A stretch of 64,000 nt of DNA from Candidatus Bathyarchaeota archaeon. Its GTDB lineage: Archaea > Thermoproteota > Bathyarchaeia > JAPDIZ01. Shown here in pieces: positions 17,484-52,645 of the stretch (its first letter is position 1; every line of letters begins with the position of its first letter). The stretch lies in assembly GCA_029259355.1 (NCBI GenBank), contig JAPDIZ010000004.1, positions 62,001-126,000 on the forward strand, in the 5' to 3' direction. Both the position numbers and the translations under genes were made by a program. Under the pieces are notes generated by a model. It was given only the letters and a program-made list of their open reading frames with translations, made no database searches and was not told the origin of the DNA.

Positions 17484-17714
17484 GTGGCGAAGACCATTGC
17501 CCTCCCTGAGGAGCTGTACTCTGAGCTGTTGGAGGTGAAGAGGGAGAGTGGTGCTGAAACCTTTGCTGAAGTAGTTGAGATGCTTTTGTCCATCTACAGA
17601 AGGCATAGGGTTGAGGAGCTGAAGAAGGCCATAGAGCGGCTAAAGCTCTCTGACGAAGAAGTGGAGAAGGTGGAGGAGGTCGTTAGAGAGGCTAGGGGGA
17701 GGAGCTGGTGGTGA
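17484..17714 (+). CDS. VapB-type antitoxin
   Basis: 76 residues: AKTIALPEELYSELLEVKRESGAETFAEVVEMLLSIYRRHRVEELKKAIERL. A short DNA-binding N-terminus of ribbon-helix-helix/DUF217 type is followed by an acidic helical tail (SDEEVEKVEEVVREARGRSWW), the part that wraps the toxin. GTG start. It overlaps the PIN-domain gene by 7 nt, the usual translational coupling of vapBC. It should neutralise the RNase and repress the operon. Confidence 0.85.
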   Translation: MAKTIALPEELYSELLEVKRESGAETFAEVVEMLLSIYRRHRVEELKKAIERLKLSDEEVEKVEEVVREARGRSWW

Positions 17715-18097
17715 ACGCGGTGCTCGACTCCTCGGTGCTGATTAAGCTGCTCGATAGAGGAGACGTTGACTTGCTCGAAGAGCTCGTAAGCAGATACGAT
17801 AGGCTGTACATCCCCTGGATATCTCTGTACGAGTACTTGTATGGACACGCTGTCTTGGGTAGATCGGTTGAGGAGCGCAAAAAAGCCTTGGAAGCTCTAG
17901 GGACCATCTTGTGGACTACGCAGGAGATTCTCACAAAAGCTCTTGAGGTAGATGTTGAGCTGCGGAAGCGGGGTGAGCCAATTCCCTTCTCAGATGTGTT
18001 GATAGCTGCTTCAGCTCTGCAAAAGGGGTGTGAGCTGGTGACGCTGGATACTAGGCACTTCTCTAAGGTTGAGGGGCTTAGGGTGGTGGTTCCATAG
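17708..18097 (+). CDS. VapC-type PIN-domain ribonuclease toxin
   Basis: 129-residue PIN domain. The acidic residues that bind Mg2+ appear in VLDSSVLIKLLDRG (Asp), ISLYEYLYG (Glu), PFSDVLIAASALQ (Asp) and LVTLDTRHFSKV (Asp). PIN toxins cleave tRNA or rRNA at specific loops. GTG start, either 17708 or the next GTG, 17711. Partner of the antitoxin immediately upstream. Confidence 0.88.
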   Translation: MVNAVLDSSVLIKLLDRGDVDLLEELVSRYDRLYIPWISLYEYLYGHAVLGRSVEERKKALEALGTILWTTQEILTKALEVDVELRKRGEPIPFSDVLIAASALQKGCELVTLDTRHFSKVEGLRVVVP

Positions 18098-20677: not shown

Positions 20678-21016
20678 CTAAACCTCGACAAACTCCTTCA
20701 CAAACCTCTTGTACCAGCGCTCAACTTCTTGAGGCGTTGCTATGTGGAGCTGGATGGGTGCATCCACCGCTAGATAGACCTCTGCCCTTACCCTAGCAGC
20801 TTCTTCTTCATCAAATCCATCAACGACTACGAGCAGGTCTATGTCGCTCAAAGCCGTATACCTCCCAGAAAGAGATGAGCCAAAGAGGTATATCCTCGCA
20901 CCTCTCCAATGCCTCAACACAACCTCCTTAACCCTTTCAGCAGCTTCGAAGGGGTTTTGAAGGTGTTTTAGCGCTTTTTTCCCGCTTTCTACGTATGGGT
21001 CAAAGCTGTTCCACAA
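20678..21016 (-). CDS. MNT-type minimal nucleotidyltransferase (antitoxin)
   Basis: 112 residues. ARIYLFGSSLSGRYTALSDIDLLVVV has the GSS...SDIDL catalytic motif of Pol-beta-like minimal nucleotidyltransferases. Such proteins neutralise HEPN toxins by adding AMP to the HEPN active site. I choose TTG 21016 because GGAGGTG lies 9-11 nt before it and this reduces the overlap with the HEPN gene to 17 nt; an upstream start would force a 116-nt overlap. Pairs with the HEPN gene just upstream. Confidence 0.82.
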   Translation of the reverse strand: MWNSFDPYVESGKKALKHLQNPFEAAERVKEVVLRHWRGARIYLFGSSLSGRYTALSDIDLLVVVDGFDEEEAARVRAEVYLAVDAPIQLHIATPQEVERWYKRFVKEFVEV

Positions 21017-21389
21017 GGGGGAAATACACCTCCTCAACAAACCTTTGCAAAGCCTTAACCTCCTTCTCCTCATACCTCCTAGGAAGGTACCTAGCCCCGA
21101 TGTAGGCGTCCTCAAGCTTTGTCAGGTATATCACGTTTTGCTCATCGCTCAAAAACTCCTCTAGCTTTGGATAGATCTTGGCTAACAGCCTCAAAAGCCT
21201 GGTAAGTGAGTGTGTGCGGGGATAAGTACCTGTCTTCACCAAAAGCTTGTGCTTAGCCAAAAGCTGGCAGCTCTGCTCAAGGCAAAAAGCCGCTAAGTCG
21301 AAAACACCCTCCTCAACAAGCCTAGCAGCGTTTGTCAAAAAAGCCCTAGCACGCTCCTTCAAAACCTCAGCTTCCTCAAACGACAACAC
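21000..21389 (-). CDS. HEPN-domain protein (toxin of MNT/HEPN pair)
   Basis: 129-residue four-helix protein: VLKERARAFLTNAARLVEEGVFDLAAFCLEQSCQLLAKHKLLVKTGTYPRTHSLTRLLRLL, then the late helix with YIGARYLPRRYEEKEVKAL. The typical HEPN RX4-6H site is not obvious in canonical spacing; RYLPRRYEE may stand in its place. GTG start. HEPN proteins in these pairs are RNases whose activity the MNT partner blocks. Confidence 0.82.
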   Translation of the reverse strand: MLSFEEAEVLKERARAFLTNAARLVEEGVFDLAAFCLEQSCQLLAKHKLLVKTGTYPRTHSLTRLLRLLAKIYPKLEEFLSDEQNVIYLTKLEDAYIGARYLPRRYEEKEVKALQRFVEEVYFPLVEQL

Positions 21390-21616: not shown

Positions 21617-21724
21617 ATGAGGGTTTTCGTCGGTAGGATAAGGGTTAGGCGAATAGCTAGGGTCGGCAGAATCAAGGTGTTGAGAGTTGGCGGTGAGGCT
21701 GAGGCTAAGGATAGAAGTAGGTGA
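21617..21724 (+). CDS. Tiny basic beta-like ORF, first gene of a retropepsin-like cassette
   Basis: 35 residues: RVFVGRIRVRRIARVGRIKV and a tail GGEAEAKDRSR. An ATG start is preceded by TCTTAAATC (21577-21585) at TATA spacing. The same arrangement, a short ORF rich in VGR.(R/V) strands followed by an overlapping retropepsin-like gene, occurs at 52126-52645, where the small ORF reads YGRWVLVEKA..IGRWVLRIG. The repetition argues that this reading frame is real. Function unknown; it could be a tail strand or chaperone-like partner of the second protein. Confidence 0.45.
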   Translation: MRVFVGRIRVRRIARVGRIKVLRVGGEAEAKDRSR

Positions 21725-22109
21725 AAAAGCTGTTGAAGAAGTTGCTCTGCTCAACAGCGGATACGAAGCACCCACCCCACACCTGCTGATACCTGTTGGA
21801 ACAGCTCGAGAGCTTGGGCTATGGCCTCCTGAGGGAGCTGCTGAGGTTGAGCTGGATACAGCTGGAGGAGTTTTGAGAGCATGGCTTTTTCCAAGAGCAG
21901 CTAGGGTAAAGGCTTTGGCAAGCGACGCCGAGTCTAAGGAGGTTGTTGCGGATGTAGTGGTTTCTCCCATAGCCGACGAATCCTTGATAAGCGATCAACT
22001 AGCTGAGGAGCTGGAGATCGCCGTAGAATCCTTTGGAAGAGGTTTGTGGAGGTTTAGGTGGGAACCACCCACAAAGCTCAGAGAAAGCGAAGCCAAAACC
22101 ACCAGCTAG
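21687..22109 (+). CDS. Retropepsin-like fold protein lacking the catalytic Asp
   Basis: 140 residues. VALLNSGYEAPTPHLLIPVGTARELGLWP aligns with the D-T/S-G flap region of clan AA aspartic proteases, but D is replaced by N (LLNSGY). VADVVVSPIADESLISDQLAEELEIAVESFGRGLWRFR is the second half, with the GxGLWR end that the paralogue at 52223 shares. It should therefore fold like a retropepsin without cleaving peptides. TTG 21687 or GTG 21693 is the start, inside the small ORF before it. Confidence 0.65.
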   Translation: MAVRLRLRIEVGEKAVEEVALLNSGYEAPTPHLLIPVGTARELGLWPPEGAAEVELDTAGGVLRAWLFPRAARVKALASDAESKEVVADVVVSPIADESLISDQLAEELEIAVESFGRGLWRFRWEPPTKLRESEAKTTS

Positions 22110-22329: not shown

Positions 22330-23100
22330 GTGAGAAGGAGAGATGCGGCTAGCTATTCAGGTTTGGCGGTGATTCTTGTGCTGTTTGTGAAGTTGAGCGA
22401 TGTGTGGAGTAAAGCTGTTGAAGAACCCTTTGGCGCGGAGGAGGATATGCAGAACCTGCTGATGAGGTTTTTGAGCAGCTTTTTGCTCAGCGTCGGCTAT
22501 GGCTCAGCTATAGCCTTTAGAGAAGTTCCCGTAGCTGGGAAGATGATCGACATACTCGCCCCAACGACTGAGGGAGAGGTTGTGTTGATCGAGTGCAAGA
22601 CAGGCTCTGGAGGCGTTAGAGAAGCTGTTGGGCAGCTGCTTGAATACGCTTCGCTTCTGTGGAAGCTTAGCTACGATGAGCTAAACGGTTTGTTGAAGAA
22701 GGCTGGAGCAAGCAGCTTGGATCGGGAGGTGGAGGATGTTGCTAAAGCGCTTGAGGGGTTTGGAGGCGTGGATGCAGAGCATTTACGCAACAGCTTCGAA
22801 GAAAAGCTTCAGAAGGGAGATTTTATGCTTTTGGTTGCTGTGGATAAGCTAGCTGAGGAGCAGAAAAGCATAGTTGACTACCTACACCAAGCTTCTGGTG
22901 GGAGGATTAGGCTGGGGCTACTCCACGTCCAGAGATACGCATTAAGCGATTCGAGTTTCAAAGCTGCTGAGCTCACGCTCTACACGCCCCAGCTCCAGAG
23001 GCCCAGAGTATGGGATGACCAAAGCTTTATAGAGTTTGTTAGGCAAGCGAGCTGTGGAGCATTAGACAAAGAATCCTGTCAAAGAGTAAAGATTTTTTGA
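22330..23100 (+). CDS. PD-(D/E)XK-type nuclease-like protein
   Basis: 256 residues. The central strand-loop-strand KMIDILAPTTEGEVVLIECKTGSGGVREAVGQLLEYASLL carries D-x(~13)-E-x-K, the restriction-endonuclease-fold signature, followed by a helix that normally packs on the active site. The N-terminal ~45 residues are probably not translated from GTG 22330; GTG 22378 or a later codon fits better with the box at 22318. The C-terminal half is ordinary alpha/beta. It overlaps the next gene by 4 nt and forms a two-gene module. It is probably a DNA nuclease, target unknown. Confidence 0.7.
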   Translation: MRRRDAASYSGLAVILVLFVKLSDVWSKAVEEPFGAEEDMQNLLMRFLSSFLLSVGYGSAIAFREVPVAGKMIDILAPTTEGEVVLIECKTGSGGVREAVGQLLEYASLLWKLSYDELNGLLKKAGASSLDREVEDVAKALEGFGGVDAEHLRNSFEEKLQKGDFMLLVAVDKLAEEQKSIVDYLHQASGGRIRLGLLHVQRYALSDSSFKAAELTLYTPQLQRPRVWDDQSFIEFVRQASCGALDKESCQRVKIF

Positions 23101-52125: not shown

Positions 52126-52266
52126 ATGGAAGAAGCTAAGCTGAGGTATGGCAGGTGGGTTTTGGTGGAGAAGGCTTCGGAGAAGCCATACCTCACAATA
52201 GGCAGGTGGGTTTTGAGGATAGGTGACGACGGTGGTCGTTCACGTAAAGCTGAGAGTGAGGTCTAA
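52126..52266 (+). CDS. Tiny beta-rich ORF, first gene of the second cassette
   Basis: 46 residues: EEAKLRYGRWVLVEKASEKP and a repeat YLTIGRWVLRIGDDGGR. The strand unit GRWVL appears twice, and resembles VGRI.V of the ORF at 21617. It overlaps the retropepsin-like gene by 44 nt, as in the other copy. Two copies sharing this arrangement make it likely to be translated. Confidence 0.5.
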   Translation: MEEAKLRYGRWVLVEKASEKPYLTIGRWVLRIGDDGGRSRKAESEV

Positions 52267-52645
52267 GCGCAGCAGCTCCGCCGAGGAGGTGGTTGCTCTC
52301 GTTAACGGTGGAGCGCACAGCCCTGAGCCAGTGCTTGTGGTCGATGAAATCACTGCTAGGAAGCTGGGGTACACCGAGGGTGAAGCTGTTGAGGCTTCAG
52401 TCGCGGACGGAAGGCGTAGAGTTCAGCTAGTGAGAGATGCTGTCGAGCTTACGCTAATCGGCGATGATGGAGCTGAGCTCGCGAAGATCTCCACGCACCT
52501 AGTGATTCACCCAAGGCTCGAAGAGCCGCTCATCACCGACACCACCATCGACGCGCTCGGAATATCGGTGGTTAGCTTTGGCAAAGGCTTGTGGAGGCAC
52601 TCAAGCGACCCACCAACTAAAGTGAGGAGAAGCGCTAAGGCTTAG
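52223..52645 (+). CDS. Retropepsin-like fold protein lacking the catalytic Asp (copy 2)
   Basis: 140 residues from GTG 52223. VVALVNGGAHSPEPVLVVDEITARKLGY is the flap-like region, with D of D-T-G replaced by N (VNGG). THLVIHPRLEEPLITDTTIDALGISVVSFGKGLWRHS is the second half, sharing the F-G-(R/K)-G-L-W-R end with the protein at 21687. It is not a peptidase by sequence. Divergent from the K+ channel gene. Confidence 0.65.
   Translation: MTTVVVHVKLRVRSKRSSSAEEVVALVNGGAHSPEPVLVVDEITARKLGYTEGEAVEASVADGRRRVQLVRDAVELTLIGDDGAELAKISTHLVIHPRLEEPLITDTTIDALGISVVSFGKGLWRHSSDPPTKVRRSAKA

Follow-up and report, generated by a model that had tools for sequence, protein, structure and literature searches.

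The window analysed here, a 64,000-nucleotide stretch of contig JAPDIZ010000004.1 of a Candidatus Bathyarchaeota archaeon (GCA_029259355.1), contains two copies of a two-gene cassette, both on the forward strand. In copy 1, a 35 aa mini-ORF (21617-21724; MRVFVGRIRVRRIARVGRIKVLRVGGEAEAKDRSR) with the doubled motif VGRI...VGRI overlaps by 38 nt, in a different frame, the gene of a 140 aa retropepsin-fold protein (21687-22109), which begins with a TTG codon at 21687. The codon at the position of the catalytic Asp (21753-21755) encodes Asn, NSG replacing DTG. Copy 2 consists of a 46 aa mini-ORF (52126-52266) with the doubled motif YGRW...IGRW and a 140 aa retropepsin-fold protein (52223-52645), for which the GTG at 52232, with AGGTGA just 5' of it, is an alternative start; its Asn codon lies at 52304-52306 and the motif reads NGG. 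The first-pass annotation had placed a basic 35-residue ORF overlapping a retropepsin-fold gene at copy 1, which is exact, and had correctly located the same arrangement at 52126-52645. It had also read N-S-G in place of D-T-G in both proteins; the Asn is indeed present in both and NSG in copy 1, but copy 2 has N-G-G. The FG(R/K)GLWR motif that it described as a shared ending is common to the two proteins, but it lies some 20 residues from the C-terminal end. Between the two copies, the large proteins show 40% identity over 135 aa. Pairwise comparison of the two mini-ORFs gave no significant likeness (E 1.8), hence their relation is seen only via their homologues. The mini-ORF tail GGEAEAKD, considered as a shared element, was rejected, being an out-of-frame reading of MAVRLRLRI, the start of the next gene. 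TATA-like elements were noticed, by eye only, 5' of both mini-ORFs.

Directly upstream of copy 1 an MNT/HEPN-type pair (an NTP_transf_2 nucleotidyltransferase and a HEPN gene) occupies 20678-21389 on the reverse strand, and a VapB/VapC (PIN) pair lies nearby at 17484-18097 on the forward strand. The gene adjoining copy 1 on its other side (22330-23100, forward strand) has borderline similarity to the NucS C-terminal nuclease (24.5 bits, cut-off 24).

Structure prediction confirmed a clan AA retropepsin-like single-domain fold for the large protein. The AlphaFold2 model of a single chain, built on 73 aligned sequences, has a pLDDT of 94.5 and a pTM of 0.88, and the PDB matches listed by Foldseek are retroviral proteases of HIV type (E about 2e-5, with a target-normalised TM of 0.62-0.71), inactive D25N forms (entries 2nxd and 6o54) among them; a viral library agrees with the likeness to retroviral proteases. 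Recognition by profiles is weak, clan AA families giving best E values of 0.0006-0.06 across 16 members. Searches of the large proteins against Pfam, NCBIfam, PADLOC and PHROGs returned no match above cut-off, and a sequence search of solved structures gave nothing convincing.

Thermoproteota supplied nearly all of the 116 distinct full-length relatives that database searches yielded. Active aspartic proteases of clan AA are homodimers sharing one peptide groove and have a catalytic Asp in D-T/S-G; all 116 relatives have Asn at this position (NSG in 89, NTG in 20, NGG in three, NAG in two, and NSS and NSR in one each), and none of the homologues has regained D-T-G, in agreement with the first-pass annotation. 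One of the two patterns used in the contig scan contained the Asn, while 50 of the 116 members came from profile searches not keyed to it, therefore the constancy of the Asn is not an artefact of the Asn-keyed scan. Asp occurs at the catalytic position only in one broken copy (L088). Besides the NSG loop, the conserved columns comprise TAGG in the flap region, LISD and a C-terminal G-x-W-R. In this pattern the groove side is kept and the catalytic acid excluded, which is what one would expect if a protease had been turned into a binding protein.

The core of the mini-ORF is short and basic (median length 25 aa, median net charge +7) and typically carries two copies of the motif [RK][IV]G[RH]I, most often 10-11 residues apart. 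VGRI...VGRI, RIGHIYPLRRRIGHIYPLRR, FVGLIRDHKTRIGRI, RVGYIKPLR...RVGYIRPLR and YGRW...IGRW are among the types seen. The strict doubled motif is found 5' of 76 of 115 family members and a looser pattern 5' of 92; inspection by eye showed that the remaining loci mostly have weaker doublets or other small ORFs, and the small ORF that the first-pass annotation expected before the homologues is thus present in most of them. The strict motif was absent from reverse complements (0) and from dinucleotide shuffles (0.0 on average). It was detected in 23 of 1,119 control ORF upstream regions, 22 of which turned out to be records of family loci, leaving effectively one. The frequency of the motif before family members is far above chance. 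The window mini-proteins had no match in Pfam or NCBIfam. Three near-identical RIGHIYPLRR repeats occur in the mini-ORFs of L053 and L133, and in L023 and the second copies of L121 and L065 the mini-ORF is of a different, acidic type that also seems to be doubled (e.g. ILTLMPLEL...ILTLIDPGV).

The mini-ORF frame is under selection at the protein level: pN/pS is 0.36 in this frame vs 1.37 and 1.33 in the other two, as calculated from 317 locus pairs that are mutually non-independent and were picked solely by the similarity of their large proteins. All four Gly codons are used for the invariant Gly of the motif. That the repeats constitute a DNA or RNA element was rejected, since synonymous positions vary and selection is confined to the ORF frame. 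The distances between mini-proteins and those between large proteins are correlated (Mantel r 0.70, permuted maximum 0.12), which is what joint inheritance of the two genes should produce.

We propose, with a probability of roughly 0.55, that the large protein is a non-cleaving, peptide-binding retropepsin with the mini-protein as its dedicated partner, in toxin-antitoxin-like or regulatory use. The large protein preserves the active-site loop, the flap region and the C-terminal motifs, Asn being obligatory where proteases need Asp, and with Asn in place of Asp it should hold an extended peptide uncut. The upstream overlapping gene would provide a basic mini-protein of 25-45 aa with two (sometimes three) strand-like R-I/V-G-R/H-I repeats, which may serve the pseudo-retropepsin as its own dedicated ligand or subunit. 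Each of the two repeats perhaps matches one protomer of a dimer; such a correspondence would not be universal, since in some members (L004, L091, L114, L198, L023 and L121) the mini-ORF is acidic or has only one motif, preceded by a helical stretch. The pair as a whole may work as a module of toxin-antitoxin-like or regulatory type, with frequent duplication and loss. A binding protein derived from a protease fold with a dedicated tiny partner had been suggested in the first-pass annotation; the fold, the Asn, the pairing with the mini-ORF and the conserved motifs bear this out, while the binding of the two proteins to each other is what we infer. In a tethered single-chain AlphaFold2 model, obtained by reading through a natural stop in L101, the mini-protein was unstructured (pLDDT 37-62), a result of little weight for or against docking. 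More tentatively, the cassette may represent a new class of two-component system, common across Thermoproteota: a retropepsin inactivated in all members would hold a tandem-repeat mini-protein in what was once its substrate groove, and the pair would be a selfish or stress module, or would regulate the active DTG retropepsins of the cell.

Within the class, apparently Bathyarchaeia to judge by named relatives, profile searches detected the family in 19 of 257 genomes, and within the phylum in 96 of 398. Its spread is patchy, often with several copies per genome, many of them broken; the genome from which the window comes has four that are intact and one that is broken. Among the named hosts are Desulfurococcales, Caldivirga, Vulcanisaeta, Bathyarchaeota and Nezhaarchaeota, together with one member of the Methanosarcinales and one deltaproteobacterial MAG, and most of them appear to be thermophiles. 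The contig filed under the deltaproteobacterial MAG (L138) carries the cassette including the mini-ORF, by interdomain transfer or contamination. The neighbours of the cassette vary: ABC transporter genes, other retropepsins and HEPN genes recur, and retroelement genes do not.

A small upstream gene overlapping a larger one, in a patchy, multicopy and decaying distribution, is also what a classical toxin-antitoxin pair would look like, with the retropepsin-fold protein toxic via a cellular target and the mini-protein neutralising it. The MNT/HEPN and VapBC pairs close to copy 1 and the HEPN genes that recur near some homologues accord with this reading, which we hold to be possible, at odds clearly below even. 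On the other side, no known toxin or antitoxin domain was matched by the large proteins in Pfam, NCBIfam or PADLOC or by the window mini-proteins in Pfam or NCBIfam, and a scan of viral contigs and a tblastn search of plasmids revealed no relatives. Moreover, an open doubled mini-ORF is kept in 12 of 27 broken copies, and the broken copies thus lack the order of loss expected of toxin-antitoxin pairs. The missing PADLOC match, the lack of viral and plasmid relatives and the order of loss also count against the reading proposed above. Toxin-antitoxin action is a special case of binding, as is the regulation of DTG retropepsins considered below, and our confidence in either overlaps with that in the peptide-binding retropepsin and its partner.

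The mini-ORF overlaps the start of the large gene at most loci, with variable frame and overlap length; its frame relative to the large gene is +2 in 81 of 93 cases, +1 in seven and 0 in five, and the in-frame mini-ORFs stop close to the start of the next gene. A start codon is present at the aligned beginning of the large gene in 88 of 91 cases. SD-like sites precede the large gene in 41 of 88 cases, vs 17 expected, and lie inside the mini-ORF. Both genes are probably read from one transcript, mini-ORF first. The overlap and the internal SD-like sites would also suit a regulatory leader, whose translation or nascent peptide controls the large gene and whose peptide has no later role. We consider this unlikely: a leader accounts poorly for tandem repeats and strong protein-level selection over some 20 residues, the tail is variable where an arrest sequence would be expected, and neither the frame nor the length of the overlap is fixed.

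The same hosts also possess retropepsins of the active type. Of 121 genomes sampled from the class, 25 have TIGR03698 matches, and the motif, where it was read, is Asp-based in nearly all of them. Thirteen genomes of the class hold both the Asn and the DTG families, a raw co-occurrence uncorrected for shared ancestry and habitat. In the window's own genome, a DTG retropepsin (C2:19438-19728, L160) is located about 3.2 kb from an Asn copy (C2:22943-23356, L003/L049), and a DTG gene is likewise near an Asn copy in a few other genomes. The first strand of the DTG proteins (MGHIWVKV, for example) is often similar to a single mini-protein repeat (8 of 14 vs 1.4% of background windows). This likeness, together with the shared genomes, gives a lead: the cassette might compete with active retropepsins or regulate them, the large protein lowering or tuning the DTG retropepsins of the cell via mixed dimers and the mini-protein mimicking their first strand. 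The proximity of the genes fits such a scheme, which we nevertheless judge rather improbable, as the Asn proteins already own a first strand, a genome (G006) has the Asn family without a DTG match, and the co-occurrence carries no correction for ancestry or habitat.

NS, NT and NG are deamidation-prone sequences, and in hosts that mostly appear thermophilic the large protein might be a latent protease, switched on when Asn deamidates to Asp at high temperature. This has very little probability: Asp is one base change away and yet occurs in 0 of 116 intact copies, where mixtures would be expected if it were the working form. That the two ORFs yield a single protein via programmed frameshifting is scarcely credible: the prevalence of one relative frame speaks in its favour, but all three frames occur, some with a stop beside the next start, the large gene has its own start codon and enriched SD-like sites, and fusion is unlikely where in-frame mini-ORFs stop close to the next gene's start.

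The proposed non-cleaving retropepsin with its mini-protein partner can be compared with three known systems. The TIGR03698/AF_0612-type single-domain aspartic proteases of clan AA (COG5550) resemble the large protein in retropepsin layout, in length and in hosts. Their profile likeness to the Asn family is weak (5 of 16 members, best E 0.0063), and copy 2 scores 13.2 bits against the curated cut-off of 57.35 bits of TIGR03698 (clan_AA_DTGF). In contrast to the Asn family, they keep DTG or DSG, and a doubled-motif mini-ORF was found upstream of none of 14 clear DTG retropepsins of the same archaeal class. Retroviral proteases share the fold, and their inactive D25N mutants also the Asn at the catalytic position; unlike them, the Asn family, at about 12-20% identity, belongs to a cellular two-gene cassette. 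A literature search, mostly outside subscription journals, found no description of the pair, and no library named it. The fold is known; the constant loss of the catalytic Asp combined with a dedicated mini-protein is, as far as can be told, undescribed. The role known for single-domain retropepsins is that of a protease; a large family in archaea with Asn always in place of the Asp, and with a dedicated mini-gene beside it, would clearly exemplify the natural reuse of a protease groove for binding. With it comes a conserved family of mini-proteins that the profile libraries searched had missed, in about a quarter of the phylum's sampled genomes (96/398). Neither aspartic nor retropepsin-type proteases are mentioned in the main comparative survey of type II toxin-antitoxin modules (PMC2701414). 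The cassette differs from such modules (VapBC, MNT/HEPN) in matching no known toxin or antitoxin family, and shares with them the small upstream gene overlapping a gene of about 130-140 aa and the patchy, multicopy and decaying distribution; as a candidate for a new type of toxin-antitoxin-like module, it can be tested directly.
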